From: Acidisarcina sp.
GTDB taxonomy: Bacteria > Acidobacteriota > Terriglobia > Terriglobales > Acidobacteriaceae
Reading direction: 5' to 3'
NCBI GenBank assembly: GCA_035539175.1
Contig: DATLIY010000008.1
Span: 310,001-374,000, forward strand
DNA length: 64,000 nucleotides
The translations under genes were made by a program, and so were the position numbers. The notes under the pieces are model-generated. The model saw only the letters and a list, made by a program, of their open reading frames with translations. It did not search any database and was not told where the DNA came from. Positions 13,469 to 40,990 of the stretch are shown here, in pieces (position 1 is the stretch's first letter; each line of letters starts with the position of its first letter).

Positions 13469-15307
13469 CTATGGGACAGTAGACGCGGGAACGGCGGACG
13501 CGGGAACGGCCGACGTTGGAGCAGAAGGCGCTGAGACCGAAGGCGCTGGAATCGATGGTGTTCCCGATCCTTCCGTGAGCGTCACCATGCGATCGACCGC
13601 GGGCGGCGGAAATACCTCCTTCAGGCCGCTGGGCCAGCGTACTTCCACGCGATCGATATGCGTACTCGTGCCTAGCCCGAAATGGAGACGCATATCGTTG
13701 TTGGAGAGATAGCTGGAGCCGCTTCGAACCTCTTGCACCAGCCTGCGGCCTCCCGCCACAACGGTAACGGTGGCGCCTATGCCGTCGCGATTCGACCGGG
13801 TCCCCACCAGCGCGGCGCCGAGCCAGTGGTTCTTGTTTGCTGCCTGATTGACGAGCAATAACGGCTTGCTGCCCATGTTGTTCACAACAGCCGATTCGCG
13901 CCCATCATTCCACAGATCCGCAATCGCAAGCCCCCTGCTCGACTTCGGCACGAGGCAGCCGGGGCCTGACTTTTGACTGATGTCGAGAAATTTTCCATTT
14001 CCCTGGTTCCAGTAGACAAGCCGCGGCTCCCGATAGCTTGAGCCAAGATGCGCACTATCTACTTCGGGATAGACATGGCCATTCACGATCATCACATCCG
14101 GCCAGCCGTCGTTGTCCAGATCCAGGAACATCACTCCCCAGCCAAGGTACTGGGTGTTCAGCCCCAGCCCGGCCTCATACACCGTGGAGGTGAAGGTGCC
14201 GTCTCCATTGTTGCGGTAGAGGGACGAGGTGTCATCGGAGAAGTTGGTCTTGAAAATATCCGGCAGCCCGTCGCCATCGTAGTCCGCAACGGAGGAGCCC
14301 ATGCCAGCCTGCTCGCGGCCATCCTCATTGAAGGCGACCGCCGCTTCCACCGCGACATCGGTGAAGGTCCCATCTTTATTGTTGCGGTAAAGAATGCTGG
14401 GAGTACTGTCGCAGGCTACATAAATATCCGGCCAGCCATCGCCGTTATAGTCGAGCGTGGAGACACTCAGGCAGTAGTGCCCCTCCGTCTTTTCAATCCC
14501 GCTGGCCTTGCTGACGTTGGCAAACCTGCCTCCGCCAAGATTGTGATAGAGCACGTTCGGCGTGGACTCCAGCCCGCGTGGACCGCACATGACCGGTGTG
14601 CCCTTCCAGATGCACATCACACCCTGTCCAGGGCGGGGGGCGGTTTTGACATCGAAGTGAACATAATTGGAGACGATCAGGTCCAGCTTGCCGTCGCGGT
14701 CATAATCCACAAAGGCGCACCCTGCCCCCCACTCACCGCCGGTTCCTGCAACGCCGGCCTGCTCGGCTACCTCTTTGAAGGTTCCATTGCCTTCATTGTG
14801 ATAGAGACGATTCTTGCCATAGTAGGTGACGTACAGATCATCGTAGCCGTCGTTGTCGTAGTCGCCGACGCAGGCGCCCTGGCCCCATCCGCTGGCTGTA
14901 AGCCCCGCAGCGCGAGTGACATCCGTGAAGGTGCCGTCATGGTTATTGTGGTAGAGGTGGCTTGTGGGATGCGACCCCTTATTCGGCTCGTCCAGCGAGT
15001 CCCCGTTGACCAGGAAGATGTCGGGCCATCCATCGTGGTCGTAGTCGAAGATCGCAACTCCGCTTCCTGTGGTCTCGATGATGTATTTCTTGGTATTTTC
15101 TTCTCCGTTGATATTCTCCATCTGCACCCCGGCCTGGGCCGCAACGTCGACGAACCACGCAGGAGCCGGATGCTCTGCGCTCGCCGGATAGGGGGGCGTG
15201 AGAACGTGCGATGGAGGAGAATGGTGGCGGGCGGGTGGCGCCTGAGCAAGACTTGCAGCAAGAGGCAGCAGGAGCACTCCCAAGAACAGCCTGGACCAGA
15301 AGGGCAT
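13469..15307 (-). CDS. Secreted FG-GAP/VCBS repeat protein with ASPIC/UnbV domain (CRTAC1-like)
   Basis: About 612 residues, with a signal peptide (MPFWSRLFLGVLLLPLAASL). A seven-bladed beta-propeller is indicated by at least six calcium-binding repeats of the DxDxDG type: DYDHDGWPD, DYDNDGYDD, DYDRDGKLD, DYNGDGWPD, DYDGDGLPD, DLDNDGWPD. An ASPIC/UnbV domain follows (GIGATVTV, RSGSSYLSNND, HFGLG). The last 35 residues are a Pro/Ala/Ser tail, partly encoded by two 15-base tandem copies at 13482-13511. The ATG at 15307 is chosen for the signal peptide; the frame stays open upstream to 16099 but only as antisense to the TPR gene. Divergent from that gene by 63 bases. Role unknown; extracellular binding is likely. 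Confidence 0.88.
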   Translation of the reverse strand: MPFWSRLFLGVLLLPLAASLAQAPPARHHSPPSHVLTPPYPASAEHPAPAWFVDVAAQAGVQMENINGEENTKKYIIETTGSGVAIFDYDHDGWPDIFLVNGDSLDEPNKGSHPTSHLYHNNHDGTFTDVTRAAGLTASGWGQGACVGDYDNDGYDDLYVTYYGKNRLYHNEGNGTFKEVAEQAGVAGTGGEWGAGCAFVDYDRDGKLDLIVSNYVHFDVKTAPRPGQGVMCIWKGTPVMCGPRGLESTPNVLYHNLGGGRFANVSKASGIEKTEGHYCLSVSTLDYNGDGWPDIYVACDSTPSILYRNNKDGTFTDVAVEAAVAFNEDGREQAGMGSSVADYDGDGLPDIFKTNFSDDTSSLYRNNGDGTFTSTVYEAGLGLNTQYLGWGVMFLDLDNDGWPDVMIVNGHVYPEVDSAHLGSSYREPRLVYWNQGNGKFLDISQKSGPGCLVPKSSRGLAIADLWNDGRESAVVNNMGSKPLLLVNQAANKNHWLGAALVGTRSNRDGIGATVTVVAGGRRLVQEVRSGSSYLSNNDMRLHFGLGTSTHIDRVEVRWPSGLKEVFPPPAVDRMVTLTEGSGTPSIPAPSVSAPSAPTSAVPASAVPASTVP

Positions 15308-15370
15308 CAAGCAAATCCTAGCATCCCCACTACGCCATCCGCCGCCGGCTGGCGTATTCTCTAATTCGCT

Positions 15371-16456
15371 ATGCGCAATTTTTCTTTCCGTAGTTTTTCT
15401 TTCCGCAGTTTCCTGGTCGCGGTTTTCCTGGCCGCGCTCTTCTGCCAACCCGGTGTTCCCTGCTTCGGACAATCCCCCGCGGCACCGGCACTCCCTGACG
15501 CAGCAAAGCCCGCGCCGACGCTGGCGGACGCTCAGCAGAAGCTGGAGCATGGCCGGACAGAAGACGCAATTGCCATCCTGCAGCAGTTGGCAACGGCCCA
15601 GCCTCCGATAAAAGGAGTGAACCGTGAACTGGCGATTGCCTTCTACCGGACAGGAAAGCTGACGGAGGCGGAACGCACATTTGCGAAAGCAATGGCGGAG
15701 GATCCGTCCGACATCGAGTCGGTACAGTTGCGGGGACTGACCCTGTACCGCATGGGACAACCCGCAGCCGCAATTCCATACCTGGAGAAGGTGCGGCAGT
15801 GGACTCCGAATGCCAACGCCGATGCCAACTATGTGCTGGGCCTCTGCTATATGAACTCGCAGCACTATGACCAGGCACGTGGCGCTTTCGCCGCCCAGTA
15901 CGGTGTCGCTCAAGACTCCGGAGCCGCATACCTGCTGCTGGCGGGGATGTTGCTGCGCGCGGATCTCCCGGAGCTTGCCGCCGAGAATGCTCAGAAGGCT
16001 CTTACAGTCTCTCCCACATTGCCGCTGGCGCATTTCAAGCTCGGCGAGGTTTTTCTCTTCAAATCCGATATTCCGCACGCACTCGAGCAGTTCGAGCAAG
16101 AGCGCGAGCTAAATCCTGCTTATCCTCCGGTTTATGACCGGCTGGGCGATGCGTATACGCGGAGTGGCCAGTATCAAAAGGCGCAAGAGGTTTTGACCAA
16201 GGCGATCTCGCTGGATATGTCGAGTACCGGACCCTTCATTCAACTGGGTAAGGTATTTCTGCGGCGCAACGACCCTCAATCGGCAGTCCTGTATCTGCAG
16301 CATGCCGAGAAGATGGATCCCAGCAACACCATGACACATACCTTGCTGGGGCAGGCGTACCGCAGTCTGGGGAGGGAGGCTGACGCGAAGCGCGAACTCG
16401 AAGCCACTTCGAAAATCAACTCCGCCAACCAGCTCAAGCTGCAGAATATAGAGTAG
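15371..16456 (+). CDS. Exported tetratricopeptide-repeat protein
   Basis: A 361-residue protein with a signal peptide (hydrophobic residues about 14-27, cleavage near CFGQ) and about seven TPR units through the body (for example GLTLYRMGQPAAAIPYLEKV and KLGEVFLFKSDIPHALEQFE). The N-terminus contains a duplicated FSFRS, from a 15-base tandem repeat at 15379-15408. Divergent from the CRTAC1-like gene with only 63 bases between starts, so they share a control region. Presumably a periplasmic or surface scaffold; partner unknown. Confidence 0.85.
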   Translation: MRNFSFRSFSFRSFLVAVFLAALFCQPGVPCFGQSPAAPALPDAAKPAPTLADAQQKLEHGRTEDAIAILQQLATAQPPIKGVNRELAIAFYRTGKLTEAERTFAKAMAEDPSDIESVQLRGLTLYRMGQPAAAIPYLEKVRQWTPNANADANYVLGLCYMNSQHYDQARGAFAAQYGVAQDSGAAYLLLAGMLLRADLPELAAENAQKALTVSPTLPLAHFKLGEVFLFKSDIPHALEQFEQERELNPAYPPVYDRLGDAYTRSGQYQKAQEVLTKAISLDMSSTGPFIQLGKVFLRRNDPQSAVLYLQHAEKMDPSNTMTHTLLGQAYRSLGREADAKRELEATSKINSANQLKLQNIE

Positions 16457-16476: not shown

Positions 16477-17784
16477 CTAGTGAACGCGGATAGCCACTAG
16501 CCTGGTCTGCAACGGGACGCCGCCTCCAAGGGAGACCTCCAGCACCGCCTCGAACGGCCGGATCTGCCCCTTCGGGAGCGAGGCGGCCTTCAGTAGTTCG
16601 CCAACGCTCTCAGGGCTGCAGACGTACTCCACTGCGGCCTGGGTGCCCAGCGTCGTAAGTCCGGAGAGCATCAGCATCTTCTTCCCCGCCTCTACCCCCG
16701 GCAGCAGCGCGACGATTGCATAGTCCTTGGTGAGGGGGTGCTCCTGCCGGGTGAACAGCGCAGGTTCGCCTGGCCTGGGATGCTGGTTGACCACTCCCGC
16801 AGAATCCGGTCCGGAGACCATCGTGAAATCCATGGTCGAGGGCAGGATCTTGAGGGAAGGATTCTCCGCGGGCGAGCCAATGAAGACCAGGTTCGTCAAT
16901 CTGGCCTCGTCCCACGTGACCAGGCGGCTCCGCTTCAGAACGAAGGCTGCCTGATGCGCGTCGAAGAGCCGGGTAAGCTGGTAGACGGCCGCAAGCTCGC
17001 CAATTCCGGTATAGGTATCCACGGAGTGCTCCGGCGCGAGTTGGTCCGGCGTGGCATCCGGTGGCGGATAGCGAAGCCCGGTCTTTGAATCTCCCAGGAA
17101 CAGCGCGTTGCTATAGATCACGAGCGGCGGGTTCCCCGAGAGGAAGGGAGCCCAGAGCGTATCGAGTGCCGAGTTGGCTAGCGGAGCCCGCTTCGGCCAG
17201 CTTCGTCCAACCAGGGTTGCCACGGCGACTGAGGCGACCCACGCCACCACAAGGACGGCTACGATGACATACTTCGGGTGCTTCCACCGGGCAAAAAGTG
17301 CCGGGCGGGTCTCCCGCAACGGTGGCGTTTCCTCCACGGGCGTAGGAGATGCCGTAGGAGATGCCGGTTTCACGTCCGTTTCACGGGGGTGAAACACTGG
17401 CAGATAGCGGCCCTTGGGTATATCGATCAGAATCTCTTCCGCTGCACCCTCGGTTGAGAAGTACTCCGCCAGCTTTTGCCGGAGGTGACGCGCATGCGTA
17501 CGGACGATACTGTCCTCGCTGGAGTTGTATCCAGGAGAACGCTGAAAGACATTGATGCCAATCTGTTGTTCCGTCGCCTCTTCCGGCGCCTGGCGAATCG
17601 CACATTCGGTAACGTACAGCAGAAAGTCCCGAAGACGCGTCGAGGCCTTGAAGGATTCGCTGGCAGCAACCCGCTGAACCAGGATCCATCTGGGGTCCTT
17701 AAGGTGCTCAGGGGACTCCGCGGCATCTGCCGAAGGCAATCGCTTCACCGCCGAAAGATTGAGTCCGCTGCTCTTCACTGTCAA
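16477..17784 (-). CDS. Membrane-anchored putative DNA-binding regulator
   Basis: A 435-residue protein in three parts. Residues about 30-132 form a domain common in Acidobacteria, with RLRDFLLYVTECA, GINVFQRSPGYNSSEDSIVR, HARHLRQKLAEYF and IDIPKGRYLPVF; it resembles the winged-helix-like N-terminal part of CadC-type proteins often fused to TolB or TPR sensors. A Pro-rich linker and one transmembrane helix (about 172-193) follow, then about 240 residues that would be periplasmic. This is the ToxR/CadC architecture of a one-component sensor. It is divergent from the TonB receptor, with a perfect inverted repeat between. The start is TTG at 17784 or GTG at 17778. DNA binding is inferred from resemblance; no family name is certain. 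Confidence 0.7.
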   Translation of the reverse strand: MTVKSSGLNLSAVKRLPSADAAESPEHLKDPRWILVQRVAASESFKASTRLRDFLLYVTECAIRQAPEEATEQQIGINVFQRSPGYNSSEDSIVRTHARHLRQKLAEYFSTEGAAEEILIDIPKGRYLPVFHPRETDVKPASPTASPTPVEETPPLRETRPALFARWKHPKYVIVAVLVVAWVASVAVATLVGRSWPKRAPLANSALDTLWAPFLSGNPPLVIYSNALFLGDSKTGLRYPPPDATPDQLAPEHSVDTYTGIGELAAVYQLTRLFDAHQAAFVLKRSRLVTWDEARLTNLVFIGSPAENPSLKILPSTMDFTMVSGPDSAGVVNQHPRPGEPALFTRQEHPLTKDYAIVALLPGVEAGKKMLMLSGLTTLGTQAAVEYVCSPESVGELLKAASLPKGQIRPFEAVLEVSLGGGVPLQTRLVAIRVH

Positions 17785-18094
17785 ATCACCGTAAAAAACT
17801 TGTCAACGCCGCCCGCACTCTAGAGGCTAGCATGTCTGCCCAATTTAAAGGCAGACATGACTGAACTGTCGTTCATTGCACCGCATTGCTCTTGTCCGGT
17901 TGGTTGTTGCACGAAAATGGAACGGCCAATCCTATTGAATTCTGGATGGGAAGAGACGATTGGAAGTCAAAAATGGGATCTCCGTAGAGATCTCTTGACT
18001 GAGCCATACCTCGTCGAGACGGCCTGGCACTCCAATCCGGACGAGTAAAGCGGAAAGCACGATCACATTAACAAGAACTCTGAGAGGCTAACAA
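17785..18094. other. Divergent control region, regulator / TonB receptor
   Basis: 310 bases between the two divergent starts. The only strong structure is the inverted repeat at 17831-17859. A 63-codon frame at 17857-18048 begins inside the repeat, lacks a Shine-Dalgarno sequence and resembles nothing known; I do not call it. No confident -35/-10 pair was found. Confidence 0.6.
17831..17859. promoter_or_regulatory. Perfect 10-9-10 inverted repeat (candidate operator)
   Basis: CATGTCTGCC, nine-base AT-rich spacer CAATTTAAA, then GGCAGACATG: both arms match perfectly. It lies 47 bases upstream of the regulator start and 236 bases upstream of the receptor start. The geometry (arm centres 19 bases apart) would suit a dimeric DNA-binding protein. 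Confidence 0.7.
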
Positions 18095-21000
18095 ATGGAG
18101 ATCAATGGTCGAATTCCTGACCAGCACCTTTGTACCGGTACAAGACTCCTGCGTCGTTTCCCGGGAATCCTGGTGGCGTTTATCCTTCTGTGGATAACGG
18201 CATCGGCTCACCCGGCCTTCGGGCAGGCAGTCTACGGTTCAATCTTTGGCACCGTTACAGACAACACCGGTGCGGTGGTTCCCAACGCAACCATTACCGT
18301 CGTCGACGTAACCAAGGGAACCTCGGTTACCACCCAGACCAGCGGAAGCGGAGAATACCGGGTACAGCACCTGATCCCGGACACCTACCGGGTCGATGCG
18401 GAATCCACCGGATTCAGCAAGACTTCTGTGAGCAACATTGTGGTCTACGCCGATACGGCGCCCAAGGTGGACATCAAGCTTGAGGTCGGCACGGTTTCCA
18501 ATACCGTCACAGTGTCCTCTGGAGCACCGCTGCTGGAAGCAGATCGCGCGGAGGTGAGCACGATCCTGAACGCTCGCGCTGTGGAAAACCTGCCAAACCT
18601 GAATCGCAACTTCACCGCCTTCGAGTTGCTGACTCCGGGCACGACATACATTGGCTGGAACGTGGGTGAATCCAACAACCCGCAACGCAGCCAGCAGATT
18701 GAAGTCAACGGCCAGTTGCCTTTCGCCACTGGTTACGAGCTGGACGGCACGGACAACCAGGAGCCGATCAACGGCGTTGCCATTATCAACCCGAACCTGG
18801 ACGCGGTCTCCGAAATGAAGGTGACCTCGCAGAACTATGACGCAGAGTTCGGTAAAGCCGTGGCTGGCCTGGTAACGGCCCAGACCAAATCCGGCAGCAA
18901 TGCCTTCCATGGATCGGCCTTCGAATATCGCCGCTCCGATGCGCAGCAAGCGCGCGATCCTTTTGCAGAAGCAACCCGGGATCCTTTGACCGGAAAATAC
19001 CTGGCGCCGAATCTCCACAATCAGTTCGGCGGATCAGTAGGAGGGCCGATCAAGAAGGAGAAGCTCTTCTTCTTTGGCGATTATCAGGGGCTCCGCGAGA
19101 AGACCGGATCGGCAACGCTGACCACGGTACCGACAGACCTGGCGCGCACCACCTGCACCTCGGGCGGAGCCTGCAACCTGAGCGAGTATCTGCAGAACGG
19201 TCAGGGCCAGATCTATAAGCCCAACAGTCTGACTGACGCCTCCAATACCGGACGTACCCCTTATGCCGGAAACATTATTCCCGCCAGCGATCTCTCCGCG
19301 CCGGCAGTCAACTTCTTCAAGCTGCTTCCGAAGCCCAATGTCGCAGGAGCAGGCATCGTGAACAACTTCTCCGCCTCTGGATCGGGCATCTTCAACACCA
19401 ACCAGTTCGATGCGCGTGTCGATGGACAGGTGCGGGACAGGCTCCACCTCTTTGGCCGCTACACGTACTTCGGTTCGGCCTTGTCGGGCGCGCCCTACTT
19501 TGGAGCGGCGGGTGGCCTTGGCTTTGGCGCAGGCGGTTTTGCAGGCACCAATGCAGCGCGGGACCAGAGCATCGCGGCGGGCGGCGACTATGTTGTGACT
19601 CCGACGTGGCTCACCGATTTCCGCTTCGGCTATTACCGCGAACGCATCGCTTCGAACGGACCTGACTACAACAAGCCGCTTGGCAACCAGCTCGGCATCC
19701 CCAACTCCAACGTTGGCGACCTTTCACTGAATGGCGGTATGCCGCAGTTCAATATCGACATTCCGAGCAATGGCTCCAACGGCAGCCAGAACATCGAGTA
19801 CGGAACATCGGCAAACCAGAACCTGCAGAACACCAGCCAGTACCAGGTGGTGAACAACTGGTCCCATACCATGGGGGCTCACAACATCAAATTTGGCTGG
19901 GATGCCCGCTACGGCCTGAACCACATCGTGTCCACGGTGAGCAACAACTTCCTCCGCTCGGGCACTTACTTCTTTGCTCAGTCGCGCACGGCGGGCCCCG
20001 ATTCCTCGGGCGTCGGCTTTGCCACCTTCCTGCTGGGAGACGCCACGACCTTCTGGCGTACCCAGACACAGAACACCAATGCGCAGGAACGGCAGAAGCG
20101 ATTCTTTGCTTATGCTCAGGACCAGTGGCGCATGACTCCGAAGATCACCTTGAACTACGGCGTCCGTTGGGAGCTCTACACTCCTGAGTCGGTGACCGGC
20201 AAAGGCCAGGGAGGCTTGCTCGACCTTGGAACCGGCAATGTCCGCATCGCGGGTTACGGGCCTTACGGAAACAACCTCAACGTCAAGAACAACTGGAAGG
20301 AATTTGCTCCGCGTATTGGCGTGGCCTATCAAGTGACGCCGAAAACGGTCGTTCGTGCCGGCTATGGCATCGTGTATGGCCAGGGATGGGCGGGCGATAC
20401 CTTCGGTGGTGTCCTCACAGCGTCCTATCCCGTGCAGGTTGCGCAGAGCTTGAACCCGGCTTCAAACTCCGCCGCGGTCTTTAACCTCAGTCAGGGACCT
20501 CCGGGATATACCTTCCCCCCGATTCCCTCCACTGGCAATTATCCGTTGCCAGATGGCATCTACTCGATTGCGCGGCCCATGGAAGTCCGGTTGCCGACTG
20601 TGGCCGGCTGGAACGTGGCTGTGCAGCAGCAGTTGACTCCGACACTGTCTTTGCAGGTCGCGTACGTCGGCAGCGAAGCCTATCACAACATGTTTGAATC
20701 GTCCCCATCGTTCCCGGCAAACCAACAGACCATCGCTGGCTTTAACCAGGTGAATCCAAACCACCCAGGCTGCTCGAATCTGCCGGCGGGATCCACGCCG
20801 CCGGATAGCTGCCTGTATACCATCCCCGAGCGCTCGCCGTACTACGACGGGACTGCGCAACGGCAGTTGGGCGTCAAGTTTGGCGCGCCTTACGGATGGA
20901 CGCAGCGTGTGGACTACATGGCAAACCAGGCAACCGGCAGCTACAACGCGCTGCAGGTGGTCCTGAACAAGCGCTTCGCCTCTGGCCTGCAGTTCCTGAC

Positions 21001-21712
21001 GCACTACACCTGGTCTCACGCCATCGGGCACGAGGCTTACGAATTCCTGATCGATCCCAAGATCGGCAAGGGCAACGGCTACTACAACCGGCGCCAGGCG
21101 TTCGTATTTGCGGGCACCTATGACCTGCCCTTCGGCAGGGATAAGATGCTCGCCTCGAATGTTCCGGGATGGCTGAACCAGATCATCGGTGGATTCCAAC
21201 TCAACGGATCGCTGACGTTGGATGGCGGTCTGCCATTCACACCCAACTATGCCTCCTGCGGCAACGATCAGGACCTGGGAATCTGCTACCTGAACAAGAC
21301 TGGCGGAGACTTCCAGATTCACAAGGGTAAGTTTGATCCAATCGGACACAAGGTTCCCTACTTCACACCTTCTCCTTATGTGCTGCAATCACCGGGACAG
21401 CCGAACAACAGCTTCGGCGGATTTGCTCGTCCCAAGATGGGCACCTATGGCAACCTCGGACGCGACTCTCTTTGGGGACCTGGACTGTTCAATACGGACC
21501 TGTCCATCGCAAAGAACTTTAAGCTGTGGGAGAGCGTCAACATGCAGCTTTCCGCACAGGCGTTCAACGTATTCAACCACGTGAACCTCAATCAACCGGA
21601 CTCCTGCGTCGATTGCCAGGATGGCAATGCGGGAACCATATCCAACACTATTTCCTCTCAGGATGGAACATCCATGCGTAGGCTGCAGTTCTATGCAAGG
21701 TTCCAATTCTGA
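18095..21712 (+). CDS. TonB-dependent receptor, Oar-like, with carboxypeptidase-regulatory domain
   Basis: A 1205-residue outer-membrane transporter. Signal peptide at about residues 20-44 (ending PAFGQA), carboxypeptidase-regulatory-like beta-sandwich at about 45-130 (GTVTDNTGAVVPNATITV, GEYRVQHLIPDTYRV), plug domain at about 135-260 (VSTILNARAVENLPNLNRNF, QIEVNGQLPFATGYELDG), then a long beta-barrel ending in aromatic ...QFYARFQF, the expected C-terminal strand. Such receptors import glycan fragments or other large ligands using TonB-ExbBD energy. No SusD-like lipoprotein is present, as is usual in Acidobacteria. It precedes a debranching-type glycosidase and is divergent from a membrane regulator, which suggests an alpha-glucan substrate. 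The substrate is inference. Confidence 0.92.
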   Translation: MEINGRIPDQHLCTGTRLLRRFPGILVAFILLWITASAHPAFGQAVYGSIFGTVTDNTGAVVPNATITVVDVTKGTSVTTQTSGSGEYRVQHLIPDTYRVDAESTGFSKTSVSNIVVYADTAPKVDIKLEVGTVSNTVTVSSGAPLLEADRAEVSTILNARAVENLPNLNRNFTAFELLTPGTTYIGWNVGESNNPQRSQQIEVNGQLPFATGYELDGTDNQEPINGVAIINPNLDAVSEMKVTSQNYDAEFGKAVAGLVTAQTKSGSNAFHGSAFEYRRSDAQQARDPFAEATRDPLTGKYLAPNLHNQFGGSVGGPIKKEKLFFFGDYQGLREKTGSATLTTVPTDLARTTCTSGGACNLSEYLQNGQGQIYKPNSLTDASNTGRTPYAGNIIPASDLSAPAVNFFKLLPKPNVAGAGIVNNFSASGSGIFNTNQFDARVDGQVRDRLHLFGRYTYFGSALSGAPYFGAAGGLGFGAGGFAGTNAARDQSIAAGGDYVVTPTWLTDFRFGYYRERIASNGPDYNKPLGNQLGIPNSNVGDLSLNGGMPQFNIDIPSNGSNGSQNIEYGTSANQNLQNTSQYQVVNNWSHTMGAHNIKFGWDARYGLNHIVSTVSNNFLRSGTYFFAQSRTAGPDSSGVGFATFLLGDATTFWRTQTQNTNAQERQKRFFAYAQDQWRMTPKITLNYGVRWELYTPESVTGKGQGGLLDLGTGNVRIAGYGPYGNNLNVKNNWKEFAPRIGVAYQVTPKTVVRAGYGIVYGQGWAGDTFGGVLTASYPVQVAQSLNPASNSAAVFNLSQGPPGYTFPPIPSTGNYPLPDGIYSIARPMEVRLPTVAGWNVAVQQQLTPTLSLQVAYVGSEAYHNMFESSPSFPANQQTIAGFNQVNPNHPGCSNLPAGSTPPDSCLYTIPERSPYYDGTAQRQLGVKFGAPYGWTQRVDYMANQATGSYNALQVVLNKRFASGLQFLTHYTWSHAIGHEAYEFLIDPKIGKGNGYYNRRQAFVFAGTYDLPFGRDKMLASNVPGWLNQIIGGFQLNGSLTLDGGLPFTPNYASCGNDQDLGICYLNKTGGDFQIHKGKFDPIGHKVPYFTPSPYVLQSPGQPNNSFGGFARPKMGTYGNLGRDSLWGPGLFNTDLSIAKNFKLWESVNMQLSAQAFNVFNHVNLNQPDSCVDCQDGNAGTISNTISSQDGTSMRRLQFYARFQF

Positions 21713-21908: not shown

Positions 21909-24440
21909 ATGAACAAGTACTTCTTTTCTTCTCTTCTTTTCCTTTGTGCGCTTTCGCTGAACGCACAGACAAGCGAGGCTCCGCAACCGGCTCCGCTACG
22001 GCCCGTCGCCTCCTTCCCGCTTGCCACCGCAGAACAGATTTCTCTTCGAAGCACCGTGCTCCCCATCCGGCCCTTTACCGTTACCGGACCGCGGGGCGCC
22101 CTTCTAGGACAGCAGGACGGCACGTATGAAGCATGGATCTTTCCCTGGAAGATCCTGAGCAACATGCGCATCACGGCGGAGATGAAGGATTATGCCGTAC
22201 CGATCGACGTCAACGAATTAGCGTCAAACCTCGACGTTCAACCGGATCACACGACGATTACGTTTTCCCACGCTAACTTCACCATTCGCGAAACATTTGT
22301 CACTCCGCAGCATGCGCCGGAGGGAGCAGGCGCGCTGGTGCTGTACCAGATAGAAGCAGTACGGCCGATGACGCTCACCTTCAACTTGACGCCGGAGATG
22401 AAGCGGATGTGGCCGGCGCTTTCCGACGACCGCCCCACGACGGATTGGGTGAAGACCGGAGACAGCGGCTACTATGTGCTGCACCTGACGACTCCGGATC
22501 ATGGCGCCGCAATCGCCATGCCGAATGCGGAGCCCGGCATTCTGCCGCCGTATCAGGAACGTCCAAAGACCTATCCTCTGCAATTCGTGCTGCACTTTGA
22601 TCCTTCTCGCGATACGCAGAAGATATTCCCCCTGCTCATGGTGACAGCGGATTCAGCGACGGAGTTAACGAACTCCGCGCTGGCAAAAAAGCTGCAAGAG
22701 CAGCAAGCCTCTGTGCAGACGATGTACCGCGATACGCAGAGCTACTACGCGACGTTTCTCCAGGATCACCTGAGCATTGAAACGCCGGATGCAAAGTTAA
22801 ACGAAGCATTTCGATGGGCTGAGACAGCCATCAACCAATTGCGCGTAGAAGTAACTCCATCGCATGCGGAGACGGCGCTGGTCGCGGGCTTTTACACCTC
22901 GGGAGACTCATCAAGACCCGGATTTGGCTGGTACTTTGGCCGCGACTCCTTATGGAGCCTTTACGCGGTGAACAGCTATGGAGACTACTCGCTGACACGC
23001 AATGAGCTTGAGTTTTTGCTGAAGCGTCAGAGTCCTGAAGGTAAGATCCCGCACGAGTGGTCGCAAAGCGCCAACCTATTTGACTGGAAGAGCCAGCCCT
23101 ATGCCTATGCCTCCGCTGACTCCACTCTCTTACTGCTGATGGCTGTCGACGACTACCTGCGAGTCAGCGGCGATCAGGAATTCGTAGAGAAGCATTGGGA
23201 CGAGTTACAGAAAGCCTGGAAATTTGAAAGCTCGCACGATTCCGATGGCGATGGCATCTACGAAAACACGGAAGGTACGGGATGGGTGGAGTCCTGGCCA
23301 CCGGGGATGCCGCACCAGGAGATCTATCTGGCGGCACTCGATCAACAGGCAAGCACAGCGTTCGCGCATCTTGCGCAGACCACCGGCCACACGCAACTGG
23401 GCAAGGATGCCGAGGCAAGAGCAAAGCACATTGGAGAGCAGATCGAGAAGGAATATCTGCTTCCTGGAGGAAGCTTCTACGCCTTCAGCCGCAATGCGAA
23501 CGGCACCACCGATCCCAGCCCGACTATCTATCCGGCAGTAGCGTCCTGGGATGGCAGCTATGCTCTGCAGCATGCGCAACCGATGATGTCTCGCTGGGCA
23601 TCCAGCGAATTTTCAACCGATTGGGGCACACGCGATCTTAGTCCTACGGTCAGCTTCTACGATCCGATCAGTTATCACCAGGGCACGGTGTGGCCGCTGT
23701 TTACCGGGTGGGTGTCACTCGCGGAATACCGCAATGGGCGCAGTCTCTCAGGCTACACGCATCTGATGCAGAACGCCGATCTAACCTGGGCACAGGATCC
23801 CGGCGCGGTGACGGAATTGCTCTCTGGAGAATACTTCGCACCGCTCGGACGCAGCACCTCTCATCAACTATGGTCGTCTGCGATGGTGATCTCACCGGTG
23901 ATGCGGGGACTCTTCGGAGTGGAGTGGAATGCTGCGGCCAAGGCATTAAAGGTAACTCCCAGCCTGCCAGCGGATTGGGATGAGGCCAAGCTGCATCACA
24001 TCCCGCTGGGCAAGGACAACCTGGATCTCGCGATGACGCGCGAAGGAAGTAGCCTGGCTGTTCGGATTACGAAGACTACAAATCCAGCGATCGCTCTTGC
24101 TTCCCGTGCAAACGGAGCAAAGCTGGTGAATGGGGTGCTTCGCATTCCACTGCCGGCAGTGGAGGTGGGAATCTCTCACGGCCTGCCTCAGCCAGGATCA
24201 GCCACGCAACAGATGAAAGTACTCGACCAGCAGGCTGCTGCAAATTCGCTGACGCTGAAGCTCTCCGCACCTGCACTGAGCCACCAGACCATCTTTCTTC
24301 GCATGAACGACAGAAAAGCAAAAGTTCAGATGGATGGCGTGGAAGCTCCCAGCGAAGGCAATGCATCTCTGCGGAAGTTGCAGGTTGTATTCGGACCCGG
24401 CGACGGATACGTCGAGAAGACTGTCACGTTCCACTGGTAA
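21909..24440 (+). CDS. Secreted (alpha/alpha)6 glycosidase, amylo-alpha-1,6-glucosidase/debranching-like
   Basis: An 843-residue protein with a signal peptide (MNKYFFSSLLFLCALSLNAQ). A beta-rich N-domain (about 30-290) precedes a six-hairpin catalytic domain (about 300-700) with WYFGRDSLWSL, GKIPHEWSQSA, ADSTLLLLMAVDDY, DGDGIYENTEGTGWVESWPP and SYHQGTVWPLFTGW. These resemble the C-terminal (GDE_C) glucosidase domain of glycogen-debranching enzymes and the GH15/GH63 clan. The likely acids are the Asp of GRDS and Glu residues of HEW or ENTEG, but I cannot assign them. It lies downstream of the TonB receptor, same strand, 196 bases away across a terminator, and converges with trehalase. Alpha-glucan hydrolysis in the periplasm is the best guess; family number uncertain. 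Confidence 0.75.
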   Translation: MNKYFFSSLLFLCALSLNAQTSEAPQPAPLRPVASFPLATAEQISLRSTVLPIRPFTVTGPRGALLGQQDGTYEAWIFPWKILSNMRITAEMKDYAVPIDVNELASNLDVQPDHTTITFSHANFTIRETFVTPQHAPEGAGALVLYQIEAVRPMTLTFNLTPEMKRMWPALSDDRPTTDWVKTGDSGYYVLHLTTPDHGAAIAMPNAEPGILPPYQERPKTYPLQFVLHFDPSRDTQKIFPLLMVTADSATELTNSALAKKLQEQQASVQTMYRDTQSYYATFLQDHLSIETPDAKLNEAFRWAETAINQLRVEVTPSHAETALVAGFYTSGDSSRPGFGWYFGRDSLWSLYAVNSYGDYSLTRNELEFLLKRQSPEGKIPHEWSQSANLFDWKSQPYAYASADSTLLLLMAVDDYLRVSGDQEFVEKHWDELQKAWKFESSHDSDGDGIYENTEGTGWVESWPPGMPHQEIYLAALDQQASTAFAHLAQTTGHTQLGKDAEARAKHIGEQIEKEYLLPGGSFYAFSRNANGTTDPSPTIYPAVASWDGSYALQHAQPMMSRWASSEFSTDWGTRDLSPTVSFYDPISYHQGTVWPLFTGWVSLAEYRNGRSLSGYTHLMQNADLTWAQDPGAVTELLSGEYFAPLGRSTSHQLWSSAMVISPVMRGLFGVEWNAAAKALKVTPSLPADWDEAKLHHIPLGKDNLDLAMTREGSSLAVRITKTTNPAIALASRANGAKLVNGVLRIPLPAVEVGISHGLPQPGSATQQMKVLDQQAAANSLTLKLSAPALSHQTIFLRMNDRKAKVQMDGVEAPSEGNASLRKLQVVFGPGDGYVEKTVTFHW

Positions 24441-24445
24441 CCGCA

Positions 24446-24474
24446 AAAACCGGACTTAGAAATCGTCCGGTTTT
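24446..24474. terminator. Bidirectional-looking terminator hairpin
   Basis: A perfect 10-bp stem (AAAACCGGAC with GTCCGGTTTT), nine-base loop, five bases after the glycosidase stop. The A and T ends make it usable from both strands, serving also the convergent trehalase gene, which stops at 24548. Confidence 0.8.
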
Positions 24475-24547: not shown

Positions 24548-26248
24548 CTAGTGAGCAGCAGCAGTTGCCGCATGCGCGCCTCTCGCACTTAGTAACTGCT
24601 TCATCTCGAGATAGGTCGCATTCGTCCAGCCAAATCCGACGACATTGCTCCTGTAGCCTGCCGATAGATTCACCGTCGTCGATCCAGTTACGACGTTGTA
24701 CTTTTCCCTTACAGTCTTATCGCGTTCAAAGTTCTGCCGCACCATCTGCATAAACTCTCGCGAGACTCGCGCAGCGTCGGCGTAGTAGCCGGCTGTGGCA
24801 AGCCCCTCGACTGCGAACCAGTTTGTAGGCGCCCAGCCGAAGGGCAGGTCCCACTGCAGGCCGGAGTCGTGGTCGCTCATCGCCAATCCACCTGCGTGTT
24901 CAAAGACAGAGAGATGCTTCTCCACCTGCGCCGCCTGCTGCTTCGAAGCAAGCCCAGCCCACAGGGGATAGAAAGCAGTTATGTAGTTATATGTCGATTG
25001 TTTTCCGGCTACGAAATCATAGTCGTAGTACATGCCTTTCGCCGGATTCCATAGATAGCGGTTGACTGCCGCGTGCCGAGCCCTCGCGCGTGCCAGCCAT
25101 TTGGATTGATCGCTGCTCTTGCCCAGCAGGCGGGCAAACCGCGCCATATCCAATTCGTACTTATAGAGCAGGCTATTCAGACAGATCGGCGCATAGTTTT
25201 CAGTCGAGCCGCTGAAGGGACCGAAGCGGAAGCTCGGATCGAATCCGCTCTCCCTCATTGCGCGGTCCCCAGCATAGAAGTTCGCGGTCAGACGATTTCC
25301 ATCGGCGTAGGCATGAGCGCAGACGCTGGAGGTGCGAACATCGCAACTGCTCCTGGCCAGCGTCTCCGCCTGCTCCGCGGTAGGATCCTCCGGCGCACGC
25401 AGCAGATAATCCGTATGCACATCCGGATGAGCAACCAGCCAGCGGATGACATCGGGATAATACTGGCTGTCATCGGCCATCTCCGGCACTGGACCCGCGC
25501 CGATATCCGTGTAACGCGCCAGGCCTGTCTTTCCTGCCAGGTGTGGCTCATGGGTCCACAGGGAGTAATCCCGTTCCGCGTAACCATAGGCCCGCTGCAG
25601 CCATGCCTTTGCCTTTGGCGCGTCTTTTTTGTTCTCGGCATCATACACAGCCTGGATCATGGAGCTGAGCAGTGGAGGTTGCGAGCGGGTGAAAAAGTAG
25701 GTGCGATTGGCGTTGAGAATGGCGCCATAGTTTTCAATCTCGAAGAAGAAGTTTTCCACCATGCCGTGCGCGAGACCAGCGCGGCCATCATCCACCAGGC
25801 CGCGGATGATGAAGAAGCTGTCCCACCCATACATCTCGTTGAACCGGCCGCCGGGAACTACATAGCGGTTGGGCAGATACAGCAGCCCCGGGCGCGGGAT
25901 TGAGGAGACGGACACATCGCCCATGTGAGTGATCTTATTCGGCAGGTGTTCCACATCGACCTTGCAATGCTGCTGCATGGCGACCACATCCGACGGCGTT
26001 TCCATCCCGGCGGGAAGGTAGAGGATGGGCGTGGTCGTGACCTTGGGATCAACCAGCGAATTGCAATCGCTCATCGAACGCGACAGGGTGTCCCATGCCT
26101 TCTGAATGTAGTCGAGTAAGGCTGCATCCTCGACAGTCTTTCGCGGCGCTTCCGCTGCAGGAGGAGCAAGGACAGACTGGGGATAGAGTGGCTGGCTGAG
26201 GCTGACGGCTACAATGCCGACGAGAAGAAAACGAAGCGAATGCCGCAT
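24548..26248 (-). CDS. treA: Periplasmic trehalase, GH37
   Basis: Hydrolyses alpha,alpha-trehalose to two glucose. 566 residues from the ATG at 26248, preceded by AGGGAG; a signal peptide follows (MRHSLRFLLVGIVAVSLSQP). Trehalase signature 1 is PGGRFNEMYGWDSFF and signature 2 is QWDLPFGWAP. The family's other conserved blocks are visible, such as ESGFDPSFRFG (the Asp is the position of the catalytic acid). The frame is open 15 codons further up, to a GTG, but that would put a charged stretch before the signal peptide. Convergent with the debranching-like enzyme, supporting a shared alpha-glucoside theme. Confidence 0.93.
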   Translation of the reverse strand: MRHSLRFLLVGIVAVSLSQPLYPQSVLAPPAAEAPRKTVEDAALLDYIQKAWDTLSRSMSDCNSLVDPKVTTTPILYLPAGMETPSDVVAMQQHCKVDVEHLPNKITHMGDVSVSSIPRPGLLYLPNRYVVPGGRFNEMYGWDSFFIIRGLVDDGRAGLAHGMVENFFFEIENYGAILNANRTYFFTRSQPPLLSSMIQAVYDAENKKDAPKAKAWLQRAYGYAERDYSLWTHEPHLAGKTGLARYTDIGAGPVPEMADDSQYYPDVIRWLVAHPDVHTDYLLRAPEDPTAEQAETLARSSCDVRTSSVCAHAYADGNRLTANFYAGDRAMRESGFDPSFRFGPFSGSTENYAPICLNSLLYKYELDMARFARLLGKSSDQSKWLARARARHAAVNRYLWNPAKGMYYDYDFVAGKQSTYNYITAFYPLWAGLASKQQAAQVEKHLSVFEHAGGLAMSDHDSGLQWDLPFGWAPTNWFAVEGLATAGYYADAARVSREFMQMVRQNFERDKTVREKYNVVTGSTTVNLSAGYRSNVVGFGWTNATYLEMKQLLSARGAHAATAAAH

Positions 26249-26484
26249 GAGGAACTCCCTGCTCAAACGCTCTGAGTCTATCGCAAATCGCACGCGCCAC
26301 GGTAGCTCGCCGCGCCTTCACCGCAAAGGAGCGCATCGGCGCAGAAGAAGCTGCAGCAAGAGTGTTGAGAGGCGCGTGTGTCGAGAGGCCGAAGGGATGC
26401 GGCTCGCAATGCGCGTTCGCCTCGTCTCCGTGAACGCGGTATCATTTTCAGTTCGTGCTTTATGCACGATGGAGGCATTCGAAA

Positions 26485-32273: not shown

Positions 32274-32321
32274 GCTAACGTCGAAGGGCCACGGCTCACA
32301 CCATGGCCCTTCGACGTTAGC
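32274..32321. repeat. 21-bp inverted repeat with 6-base loop
   Basis: Arms 32274-32294 and 32301-32321 match at 20 of 21 positions, around CTCACA. It lies 26 bases after the cytochrome stop. It is very stable but lacks a T-run, so it may be a Rho-type end, an mRNA stabiliser or a dispersed palindromic element. Confidence 0.75.
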
Positions 32322-37177: not shown

Positions 37178-40100
37178 TTAGTACTGTATTTTCATCAGGA
37201 ACTGGATATTTCGCGGACCGTTGACCATGGAGGTTGGATCGACATATCCAAAGCTGAAGATGTCGTTCGGCCCCCCAGAGTTCGGTCGGTTGAAGATGTG
37301 ACGGTTGAAGGCATCGATCATATCCATCTGGAAACGGACATTGACCTTTTCTGTGATGTGCGTGGTTTTTTGAATACTGAAGTCCTCACTCAGATACCGG
37401 AAGCTTCGGACCTCACCCGTAGTTCGAGGTTGCGTTCCGAAGGCATAGGAACCGCGACTGGTGACTGTACTTGGCGTATTTGGATCGATCAGCGCTTGAT
37501 AGTTGAAGTAGCGATAGGGATCCGGGTTGGTTAGAGCGTTATAGGGATCTGCACCGAACACCGCGGGCTGCAGAGCAGGATTGAAGTGCCCTGCGCGTAC
37601 AGCCTTACTGGTGAGCAGTTGCCCCTCCACGCGGCTGTAACGAATGCACCCATCAAAAGCCGGCACTCCCGTTGCGCAGTAGAAGGACAGCGGTTGTCCC
37701 GACTGATAGCGTTGGACGCCACTTACCTGCCATCCACCAACCACCTTGTCCACGATGCCACCCTTCGAGAGGAACTTCTTTCCCTTTCCAACTGGCAATT
37801 CGTAGAGATAGCTCAGGACAAACGTATGCGGAGTGTCCTGATTGCTGATGGCCTTTTCTCCCTTGGGATCAAAGGGGTTCTGGATTTGCCCGCCACCGTG
37901 GAACGAAGAGAAGGCAGGCAGCGCGCTGTCCGCATTGGTCAGAGTCTTGGACCAGGTATAGGACGCGAGCAGGTTGAGGCCATCGCGGAAACGCCGTTGC
38001 AAGGACGTCTCCAGTGCATTGAAGCCGGCCTGTCCACGATTCTCCAGGCAGCAATCGGTGTTGAAGTTGAAGAACTGCGGATAGGGACGCAGCGATTGAC
38101 CTACGGATTGTCCCGTGGGATAGCCCAGATAGGGCAGCTTGATGCCTGCCGCAATGGCACGAGGCGAGCCCACAGGAGCAGCGAGAAGATTGCCCAGAGC
38201 AAATTTGTCTGGGGTAATGGAGTTGACATTGTCAAACGTAGAGCGCAGATGCGTGGAACGCTGGCCAACATAAGCAACGTCGAGGATTAAATCCGTTGCC
38301 ACCTGTTGTTGAATTTCCAGGCTCCAGTTATTCACCATTCCAGGCCGGCCATAGGAACGATCGACATAGCCAGGAGTCTGGAAATTGACCTGAGACGGAC
38401 TCAGGTTTGGCGGCTTGGTATAGGCGGGAAATCCTGTTCCCAGGTTGAACGCCGGATTGAAGCCATCAGGGCTGGAGAAAGCCGGATTCCCCTGAAAACC
38501 TGTCCGGAGAAAACCACCAAAATCCGCCCAGAGCAGGCCAGCATAGAAGATGCCGCCACCACCGCGAATGACGGTCTTGTTATCGAACATCTTCGGAGAC
38601 CAGGCGAAACCAAGTCTCGGCCCGAAGTCCTTGTACCAGGTGTCAACCCATCTTTCGCTGGTCCTGCCGGTCCGCCCTGCTCCCTTGCCAGCAAATACCA
38701 GCGCGCCGGGTAGACCTCCAGCATCCGGATTGGTCGCCTTAAGATCGATATTCGACATGTTGTCGTGCGATTCACGCCGGCTGATATCAACATCCCAACG
38801 CAGACCGTAGTTAATCGTGAGCGTCGGAGTGAGCTTGTAGCTGTCCTCGAAAAAGACTCCATAGTACGGCGACAGGAACTTGGGCTGGCCGGCATAGGCC
38901 GTCAACCCACCGAACCCGGGCTGGCCGAGGAGCAAGCTGGCAAAACCGTTTCCGCTAAGACCATTGCTCGGAACCGTTCCAGCGGTGGTGAAGTTGTTGA
39001 AGTTGATGGTTCCGCTTGCTCCGGCATCCGAGAGGGGATTGTAAATCTGATATCGAAGATCAACACCAAACTTGAAGTCGTGCTTCCCCTTCACCCAATT
39101 GAAGGTGTCGTTGAGGCGGTAGCCGTTGTCGATGGTGTCACCGTCTACGTTATCCCCCAGGCCATGCACTCCATCGACATTGATCGCAGGGAATGTTCTT
39201 CCGCCACCGTTAGCGATACCCAGCTTCGCATCCCACCCGCCGCCGTATCGTACGCCCGCTCCTGTGTTCTTGCTGTTGGTACGGTTGTAACCAACATTCA
39301 GGTGGTTGAGCATGGAAGGTGTCACCGCGTAGTCATAACCAACGCGAATGTAGTGGGTAAAGAAATCCTGCGAGCGCCCGGCGCCAGCCGCCGAAGGAAA
39401 TGCAGGCGTAGTCGAGGTGCGCGTGTTGTCACGAGAGTTAAAGGTGAAATACAACTTCTGCTTCGATGTCAGATTCTGGTCGACGCGAACCGTCATCGAA
39501 GTATCGAGAATGGGGAAGGACCAGCTATACGCGAAGTTGTTGGTCAATCCCGAGGATTGGGGGGCCGGATAGAACGCGAGGATATTCTTTGCGACGGCTG
39601 CGGAGTTGCTATCCAGCACGTAGCCGGCGGGAATTTTGTTTCCCGGGAAAGGCGTACGGCAGAGTGCACCGCTGGCCGTCGTTGTCGTCGTCTTCGGGTC
39701 AAATATCTGGCCTTGATATACCGGCTGACCATTGCATGGATTCGTGTCTACGATGTGGTTGGTCAGTGTCTCGCTGAAATCGCCCTGGCGCATCAGAGCC
39801 GTCGGTACCGTGGAGATGGTGGTCCCGCCAGTCGTCTGCCGATACTGCTCCCAGGAGAAGAAGAAAAAAGTCTTATCCCTGCCGTTGTAGAGCTTGGGGA
39901 TGACCAGGGGGCCGCCCATGGTTAACCCATAGTCGTTCTTCTTGTCCTTGGGGCGTTGGTACGGAGCCCGTGCGGCAGCCGTGGTGTAATGCGCCAGATA
40001 GAGATTGTTTCCCCAGTTGTTGGCGTCGAGCGCCTCGTTTTTGTAGAGATCGTAGATAACTCCGTGATAGGAGTTGGTTCCCGCCTTGGTGCTAAAACTC

Positions 40101-40990
40101 TCCACACCGCCGGTTGTACGCCCCAGCTCTGCGGGTAGGGTCGAGGTGGTGACTTTGAATTCGGAGAGAGCTTCAACGGAGGGAGATGTCTCGTCAAAAG
40201 ACGAACCATTCTCCGAACGGAAGGTGCTTGCCCCATCCAATAGGACTTCCGTTGAATAGTTCTGCCCACCAGAAATCTTTGACTCAAAGGTTCCGCCGTT
40301 GCCGTTGGCTGTCCCAGGTCCGGACGTTCCTGGAATCAGGAAGACAAACGCTTCCGGGGAACGCATGCCGCTCACGACGCTGCCATTCAGATTGAGAGGA
40401 AGATCTAACGCCTGCTTTGGCGTGATGACGCCGCCCACATCCGAACTCTCGGTCTGAATCGTCGGAGCGTCGGAGACGATGGTGACTGTTTCATTCACAG
40501 CTCCGACGCGAAGGCTGATGGTCAAGGCTGTGGTCGTTCCCACTTGCACCACCACTCCCGTGTTGTTCGCTGTGCTGAAGCCGGACGCGACGGTGGTGAT
40601 GTTGTACGTGCCAATGTTGACGTTGGGGAGACGGTATGAGCCCGAACTGGTGGAAACCGTCTCATATTTGCTGCCGGAGTTGACCTCAACCGCGGTGATC
40701 TTGGCGTTCGGGATCAGCGCTCCGGTGCCATCTTCCACCACACCCGAGATTGCTCCCTGGTTGACCTGAGCATTGGCGGTGGCGAAGGTTGCGAGGAGGC
40801 AGAAAATTATTGCCAGGACTCGGGCTGCGGCATGTAAACGTTTTCCTTTCCGGGAAGAGTTTTGAAATGGGCTAGCCAGCAGTCTCCCGCCTGTGCTGCC
40901 ACGCGCGCCATGCTCCGGTGCCATGGTGGCGCTCGGGTAAACATTTACGCAGGAAACGTTTACCATCGCTTGATAATTTTTTGTCGTCAT
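37178..40990 (-). CDS. TonB-dependent receptor, Oar-like, with carboxypeptidase-regulatory domain
   Basis: About 1200-1270 residues. The signal peptide is unusual in position: the hydrophobic stretch ARVLAIIFCLLATFATANAQ begins about residue 57 of the open frame. Then come the regulatory domain (GAISGVVEDGTGALIPNAKI, GSYRLPNVNIGTYNI), a plug domain and a barrel ending in ...RNIQFLMKIQY. A start near residue 45-57 would be normal, but no in-frame ATG with a good ribosome-binding site is there, and the start region contains three operator-like palindromes, so the 5' limit is uncertain. Flanked on both sides by TPR genes on the same strand. Substrate unknown. No SusD partner. Confidence 0.88.
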   Translation of the reverse strand: MTTKNYQAMVNVSCVNVYPSATMAPEHGARGSTGGRLLASPFQNSSRKGKRLHAAARVLAIIFCLLATFATANAQVNQGAISGVVEDGTGALIPNAKITAVEVNSGSKYETVSTSSGSYRLPNVNIGTYNITTVASGFSTANNTGVVVQVGTTTALTISLRVGAVNETVTIVSDAPTIQTESSDVGGVITPKQALDLPLNLNGSVVSGMRSPEAFVFLIPGTSGPGTANGNGGTFESKISGGQNYSTEVLLDGASTFRSENGSSFDETSPSVEALSEFKVTTSTLPAELGRTTGGVESFSTKAGTNSYHGVIYDLYKNEALDANNWGNNLYLAHYTTAAARAPYQRPKDKKNDYGLTMGGPLVIPKLYNGRDKTFFFFSWEQYRQTTGGTTISTVPTALMRQGDFSETLTNHIVDTNPCNGQPVYQGQIFDPKTTTTTASGALCRTPFPGNKIPAGYVLDSNSAAVAKNILAFYPAPQSSGLTNNFAYSWSFPILDTSMTVRVDQNLTSKQKLYFTFNSRDNTRTSTTPAFPSAAGAGRSQDFFTHYIRVGYDYAVTPSMLNHLNVGYNRTNSKNTGAGVRYGGGWDAKLGIANGGGRTFPAINVDGVHGLGDNVDGDTIDNGYRLNDTFNWVKGKHDFKFGVDLRYQIYNPLSDAGASGTINFNNFTTAGTVPSNGLSGNGFASLLLGQPGFGGLTAYAGQPKFLSPYYGVFFEDSYKLTPTLTINYGLRWDVDISRRESHDNMSNIDLKATNPDAGGLPGALVFAGKGAGRTGRTSERWVDTWYKDFGPRLGFAWSPKMFDNKTVIRGGGGIFYAGLLWADFGGFLRTGFQGNPAFSSPDGFNPAFNLGTGFPAYTKPPNLSPSQVNFQTPGYVDRSYGRPGMVNNWSLEIQQQVATDLILDVAYVGQRSTHLRSTFDNVNSITPDKFALGNLLAAPVGSPRAIAAGIKLPYLGYPTGQSVGQSLRPYPQFFNFNTDCCLENRGQAGFNALETSLQRRFRDGLNLLASYTWSKTLTNADSALPAFSSFHGGGQIQNPFDPKGEKAISNQDTPHTFVLSYLYELPVGKGKKFLSKGGIVDKVVGGWQVSGVQRYQSGQPLSFYCATGVPAFDGCIRYSRVEGQLLTSKAVRAGHFNPALQPAVFGADPYNALTNPDPYRYFNYQALIDPNTPSTVTSRGSYAFGTQPRTTGEVRSFRYLSEDFSIQKTTHITEKVNVRFQMDMIDAFNRHIFNRPNSGGPNDIFSFGYVDPTSMVNGPRNIQFLMKIQY
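40834..40963. promoter_or_regulatory. Three LacI-type operator-like palindromes
   Basis: GTAAACGTTTTC (40834-40845), GTAAACATTTAC (40937-40948) and GGAAACGTTTAC (40952-40963) each match the palindrome GTAAACGTTTAC at 11 of 12 positions. The last two are three bases apart. All lie in the 5' part of the second TonB receptor's open frame, between its presumed signal peptide and the upstream TPR gene. Confidence 0.6.

Follow-up and report, generated by a model that had tools for sequence, protein, structure and literature searches.

A predicted family of membrane-anchored transcription regulators encoded beside TonB receptor genes in Acidobacteriaceae

In CadC and ToxR, an N-terminal OmpR-type winged helix is joined by one transmembrane helix to a C-terminal periplasmic sensor, while in Bacteroidota, hybrid two-component systems and sigma/anti-sigma switches are found beside SusC/SusD. 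Here we describe a locus that recalls both arrangements, in a stretch of 64,000 nt from Acidisarcina sp. (the window; assembly GCA_035539175.1, contig DATLIY010000008.1, 310,001-374,000 of the forward strand), where the gene for a predicted transmembrane transcription regulator and that for an Oar-type TonB-dependent receptor diverge from a shared gap of 310 bp (17785-18094). The regulator probably belongs to a family of ToxR/CadC-like membrane regulators that Acidobacteriaceae devote to their TonB receptors, and it would autoregulate through a conserved element, its candidate site; this reading builds on sequence comparison and structural models. The features on which it depends are the following:

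16477..17784, minus strand: open reading frame (ORF) of the transmembrane transcription regulator, 435 codons from TTG as called
17377..17703, minus strand: N-terminal winged-helix domain, putatively DNA-binding (residues 28-136; model with predicted local distance difference test (pLDDT) 93.3 and predicted template modelling score (pTM) 0.86)
17203..17277, minus strand: single transmembrane helix (residues 170-194, from the model; hydropathy 2.75 at 174-192)
16480..17172, minus strand: sensor-like domain, presumably periplasmic (residues 205-435), resembling BcsB and GH67 N-terminal domains in structure comparison
18095..21712, plus strand: Oar-type TonB-dependent receptor, 1205 aa, CarboxypepD_reg and OMP_b-brl_4
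21909..24440, plus strand: GDE_C/MGH1-like glycosidase after the receptor, from Pfam, with a signal peptide apparent by eye

The domain layout of the regulator is like that of CadC and ToxR, and its modelled N-domain matches the DNA-binding domains of both. It differs from them in falling below the Trans_reg_C cut-off, in carrying a BcsB/GH67-N-like C-domain, in having a TonB receptor as partner and in belonging to a multi-copy family. The protein would thus work like ToxR or CadC, the new aspects being its sensor fold, its partner and its sequence family. As in the SusC/SusD switches, an inner-membrane sensor is predicted beside a TonB receptor gene and a glycosidase; unlike in those switches, Pfam reports no kinase, receiver or sigma/anti-sigma domain in the regulator, and sensor and DNA-binding domain lie in one polypeptide. 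A 2023 survey reports that transmembrane transcription regulators (TTRs), which it counted by Pfam DNA-binding models, are above average in Acidobacteriae (PMC10269533), and the family described here shares the functional class of these TTRs.

Domains and fold of the regulator

The sequence-only reading of this DNA had described a 435-residue protein with one transmembrane helix (about 172-193) facing an Oar-type receptor across 310 bases, and this layout was confirmed. The two ORFs lie at 16477-17784 (minus strand) and 18095-21712 (plus strand), the receptor matches PF25183 OMP_b-brl_4 (2.6e-199) and CarboxypepD_reg (3.5e-17), as expected for the Oar type, and the membrane helix is placed at 170-194 by the model and at 174-192 by the best hydropathy window. 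The AlphaFold2 model of the whole protein (29 sequences in the alignment; pLDDT 79, pTM 0.53) comprises a helical N-domain with a beta wing, the helix 170-194 and a C-terminal alpha/beta domain. Of 37 family ORFs, 33 have exactly one hydrophobic segment beyond the N-domain.

When the N-domain model was compared to known structures with VIA, the twelve best matches were all OmpR/PhoB-type DNA-binding domains (Z 6.1-6.9), including SaeR, GlnR, YycF, RpaA, PhoB, CovR and ArlR; the values for CadC (5ju7) and DNA-bound ToxR (8b4d) were 5.8 and 4.6, respectively. By sequence, the regulator has no Pfam or NCBIfam family match, with only an 11.9-bit Pfam chance match over the membrane helix. The window N-domain scores 14.3 bits against PF00486 Trans_reg_C, whose cut-off is 26.2 bits, and two paralogues in the same genome reach 24.1, the highest value among them, and 22.0. 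Of 32 family N-domains, 12 match Trans_reg_C below threshold (best 2.2e-05), a weak pointer in the direction of the structural matches. In 28 of 29 close-family proteins the domain is not reported even at E 1, on account of which the family would mostly be missed by a Pfam-based TTR count such as that of PMC10269533.

Three results count against the assignment of the N-domain. The VIA Z values are below 8, thus moderate, and the winged-helix protein ScpB, which is not a regulator, ties at 6.1; Foldseek alone gave no significant match for the N-domain model; and hhalign comparison of the N-domain with eight Trans_reg_C domains of the same genome yielded a probability of 15.6% and an E of 0.0017. 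An OmpR/PhoB-type winged helix, with putative DNA binding, is nevertheless largely supported by the models. Of the earlier proposal of a ToxR/CadC-like regulator, the layout therefore stands (modelled winged helix, one transmembrane helix, C-terminal domain), but Pfam does not name the protein: its Trans_reg_C match stays below the cut-off, and it is structure comparison that favours an OmpR/PhoB-type winged helix.

The C-terminal domain superposes on BcsB (9fmt_A) with a VIA Z of 11.6 (159 residues aligned, root-mean-square deviation 3.0, 11% identity), followed by the N-terminal domains of GH67 (1mqq), GH115 and GH84 enzymes (Z 9.5, 8.5 and 8.2), and the best Foldseek match (E 0.0071) was also BcsB. 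The predicted periplasmic part is thus like the flavodoxin-like domain of BcsB in fold; unlike BcsB, to which its identity is 11%, it sits on a regulator and not on a cellulose synthase subunit. At E 1, Pfam matched no BcsB family in 29 members, and sequence searches yielded no convincing relative of solved structure. A glycan-linked fold is plausible for the modelled sensor domain, with the proviso that a shared fold is not a shared ligand. Full-length scans of eight family members showed WD40-like repeats in one and TPR repeats in another.

Pairing of the regulator family with TonB receptors

Scanning a single genome per species yielded 30 orthologous loci (31 with the window), all from acidobacterial records, many of them titled Acidobacteriaceae, including Edaphobacter, Granulicella and Terriglobus. 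A divergent TonB receptor lies upstream of the regulator in all 30 (with approximately 2 kb between them in L109), indicating that the pairing is real. The glycosidase follows the receptor in 17 of the 30; of the remaining 13, four lie on contigs that end at the receptor. Six loci keep the regulator beside a receptor that shares only 26-29% identity with that of the window, and the distant regulators of L108 and L109 also adjoin receptors, 24% and 26% identical to the window's.

The 3.9-Mb genome to which the window belongs carries 10 genes with the N-domain and 51 PF25183-type receptor loci (62 matches, merged). Nine of these 10 paralogues lie within 1.6 kb of an OMP_b-brl_4 receptor, seven divergently and two in tandem, and the tenth, also in tandem, is 3.7 kb away; random placement in the same contigs put a mean of 0.86 near a receptor, with a maximum of 6 in 20,000 trials. 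In three other genomes, selected because they hold many copies, at least 29 of 46 members are within 3 kb of a receptor among the matches listed (21 divergent, 7 tandem, 1 convergent; random mean 4.0, maximum 11 in 2,000 trials), a lower bound given that 150 of the 175 receptor matches were used and not all candidates were scored; 13 of the 46 are more than 5 kb from any receptor among those matches. Of 149 genomes sampled from the phylum, 19 carry the N-domain (E 1e-10); 14 of these belong to the same taxonomic family (14 of the 17 among the genomes listed, the 17 being possibly incomplete because the list leaves aside 110 genomes with no match) and 5 lie elsewhere, with 10-19 copies per genome in the four richest genomes seen.

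Loci with a different receptor show a C-domain identity of 59% (6 loci), versus 64% in those with the same receptor (11 loci), the N-domain values being 70% and 69%; co-divergence of sensor and receptor in these sequences is suggestive only, the loci being non-independent. We also observed that in L108:6900-8104 the N-domain is 61% identical and the TTCACGGT half-site is kept, the sensor and the receptor each being 24% identical, so that the DNA-binding part and its putative site appear preserved while sensor and receptor differ together. In the window's own genome, 8 of the 10 paralogues cluster on C6:95000-204000 and C11:114000-153000 (loci L040, L041, L060, L061, L063, L064 and L065), as if in uptake islands, and most of them have a TonB receptor next to them.

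A role in glycan uptake, as the sequence-only reading had suggested, is plausible but unproven, considering that 17 of 30 relatives encode a GDE-like enzyme behind the receptor and that the fold predicted for the sensor is glycan-associated.

Candidate operators in the shared gap

A conserved element lies directly before the regulator, and overlaps its putative promoter:

17774..17798, minus strand: conserved element TTTTTTACGGTGATTTGACAGTGAA, proposed operator over the putative -35 of the regulator, from conservation in relatives
17756..17784, minus strand: putative sigma-70-like promoter of the regulator (TTGACA, 17 nt, CAATCT), read by eye

The element, TTYACGGTG-ATTTGACCCGTGAA (consensus TTTTTCACGGTGATTTGACCCGTGAA), stands out in gaps that are otherwise poorly alignable, and this contrast is a stronger argument for it than the comparison with shuffled sequences. 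In that comparison, 15 of 31 upstream regions match the first 19 consensus letters at 16 or more positions versus 0 of 1,550 Markov shuffles, and TTYACGGTG occurs without mismatch in 19 of 31 regions and at 8/9 or more in 28 of 31 (shuffles, 0.26% and 5.7%; reversed pattern, 0 of 31), values that favour the consensus and overstate somewhat, because the relatives are related by descent and the consensus was read from the same sequences that were then scored. A second group of six loci carries an invariant GTATTCACGGTGC and, at a spacing 8-9 bp greater, TTT(G/C)ACG(G/T)GTGAA. In the six loci with a different receptor, 16-19 of the 19 letters are found in five and 13 of 19 in L105; being kept in five of these six, the candidate element follows the regulator, as would be expected of an autoregulatory site.

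Genome-wide, the exact core occurs once in the window's own genome, plus one copy with 1 mismatch and one with 2, compared to two control matches. The sole 1-mismatch copy (C7:91614) was dismissed as a second target, as it lies between convergent ORFs in a 3-kb locus where no regulator was seen. Of ten relatives' genomes, five also hold the exact core once, in each case at the regulator locus, and looser matches over these ten genomes number 39 versus 27 for controls.

We envisage that the OmpR/PhoB-like winged helix, in the cytoplasm and tied via one transmembrane helix to a periplasmic alpha/beta domain, would most likely bind TTYACGGTG-ATTTGACCCGTGAA over its own putative -35 and thus repress or activate its own promoter. 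From the shared gap it would probably also control the divergent receptor and the glycosidase, and the periplasmic domain may sense a ligand, perhaps an oligosaccharide delivered by the receptor, or the state of the receptor itself.

Beyond the bias of the shuffle comparison, several observations weigh against this scheme. L103, L105 and L109 (3 of 31) fall short for TTYACGGTG, although for L109 the stretch searched missed its own copy, and the other 5 of the 10 relatives' genomes carry only variant forms at the regulator locus. Before most other members of the family (36 upstream regions), the full 27-letter consensus scores no higher than in shuffles, the clear exception being the orthologue L066 (19 of 27). 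A strict consensus promoter scan found no promoter in the 310-bp gap, and TTTGAC, within the element, may be no more than the -35. Finally, a check of six loci showed no copy of the element on the side of the receptor; control of the receptor from one site is therefore unproven, and this is the main gap in the argument.

The last of these points fits a regulator that controls only itself, with the element at its own promoter and the receptor neighbourhood reflecting shared inheritance or a non-transcriptional role. We consider this quite unlikely, since adjacency recurs across distant paralogue pairs and regulators remain beside receptors even where the receptor differs.

It is likewise improbable that the element is the sigma-70 promoter of the regulator and no operator. 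The element does overlap TTGAC, a possible -35, its TTTGAC is of -35 character, and a -10-like AATACT follows approximately 17 nt on in several relatives (by eye). Yet the letters conserved best, TT.AC.GT (2 bits, over 17 sequences picked for their likeness to the consensus), are not those of sigma-70 and are found upstream of the -35, and in six loci the TTCACGGTG block is invariant despite lying 8-9 bp further from TTTGAC, which argues that it is a separate module.

The conserved element also bears on the start codon. The called TTG (17784-17782) falls inside it, and conservation of the protein begins near residue 30; the real start is thus probably 12-15 codons downstream, at GTG 17748-17746 or TTG 17739-17737 (approximately 423 or 420 aa).

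One operator common to all paralogues was rejected on the 27-letter scan of the 36 upstream regions. The looser core YACGGT, on the forward strand, is present in 14 of these 36 versus 4 of 36 in each control, an exploratory count that includes the orthologues L066 and L067. TACGGTA is common to L048, L064, L073, L040 and L062, TACGGTTAC to L068 and L069, and TATGGTTAC occurs in L070. Related regulators may thus use related operators. Both loci in which residue 97 is N rather than H (L085 and L093) also show an altered element core; two loci are too few, and covariation between recognition helix and operator is not claimed.

We propose more tentatively that Acidobacteriaceae could run many of their TonB receptors via a dedicated and expanded family of one-component membrane regulators, each with its own operator and with a BcsB/GH67-like domain reading the imported glycan or the receptor. 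If true, Bacteroidota's hybrid two-component and sigma/anti-sigma switches would have here an analogue assembled from other parts. Acidobacteria are soil bacteria whose genomes each encode TonB receptors by the dozen (51 loci in the present one). Literature searches on acidobacterial TonB regulation (subscription papers and preprints being outside their scope) found neither a description of the family nor an explanation of how Acidobacteria choose which TonB receptor to make. Regulator family, sensor fold, receptor partner and candidate operator together make the proposal directly testable, and the pairing could help predict sets of receptor, regulator and substrate.

The sequence-only reading had placed the operator elsewhere in the gap, at an inverted repeat:

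17831..17859, no strand: perfect inverted repeat CATGTCTGCC-N9-GGCAGACATG, 10-bp arms, non-conserved

The repeat is indeed present, exact at these positions, but the idea that it is the operator did not survive comparison with relatives. None of the 30 relatives keeps it (best match 13 of 20 letters), even though all 28 N-domains compared share 58-72% identity with that of the window; it is at the locus in none of 18 whole genomes, with near matches elsewhere in 2 of the 18; and the conserved element is intact in the window. It was therefore rejected as a conserved operator. That it nonetheless serves the regulator in controlling the receptor is very improbable, even considering that its 10-bp arms are perfect, that it lies in the shared gap at 46 bp from the start as proposed, and that it is single: neither the window nor, with up to 3 mismatches allowed, the 3.9-Mb genome holds a second copy.

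Such a repeat is unusual for a 310-bp gap and not striking window-wide, as the window holds 6 perfect repeats (arms of at least 10, gap 3-25), compared to 0, 2, 0, 3 and 2 in five Markov shuffles. It could be an independent site, either an RNA hairpin in a leader or the target of another regulator: the stem region folds better as RNA than shuffles (z -2.8). We regard this as somewhat unlikely, as no T-run follows the repeat and it is without conservation in relatives. Several relatives have species-specific inverted repeats with arms of 8 at the same place, at about the chance rate by rough estimate. Elsewhere in the window, a perfect inverted repeat directly after the glycosidase stop (24446-24474) resembles an ordinary terminator, and the longest of the six, at 32274-32321, has perfect 18-bp arms and a 12-nt spacer.

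Neighbouring genes

Two further genes flank the unit:

15371..16456, plus strand: TPR protein, convergent with the regulator, from Pfam; present in 11 of 30 relatives
24548-26293, minus strand: trehalase, convergent, from Pfam

An FG-GAP/UnbV_ASPIC protein is encoded beside the TPR gene next to the regulator (13469-16456 for both), and an FG-GAP-like gene was found in 7 of 30 relatives. From their recurrence in 11 and 7 of these loci, the TPR and FG-GAP-like genes may belong to the regulator-receptor unit. The window also contains a second large OMP_b-brl_4 receptor (37178-40990, minus strand), with no regulator of the family beside it. On the other side of the locus, Pfam matches bore out the neighbours given by the earlier reading, namely a debranching-type (GDE_C/MGH1-like) enzyme and a convergent trehalase. 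The flanks examined in relatives were 7 kb long and mostly ended before the trehalase position; a trehalase was found near the 36%-identical regulator of L069.

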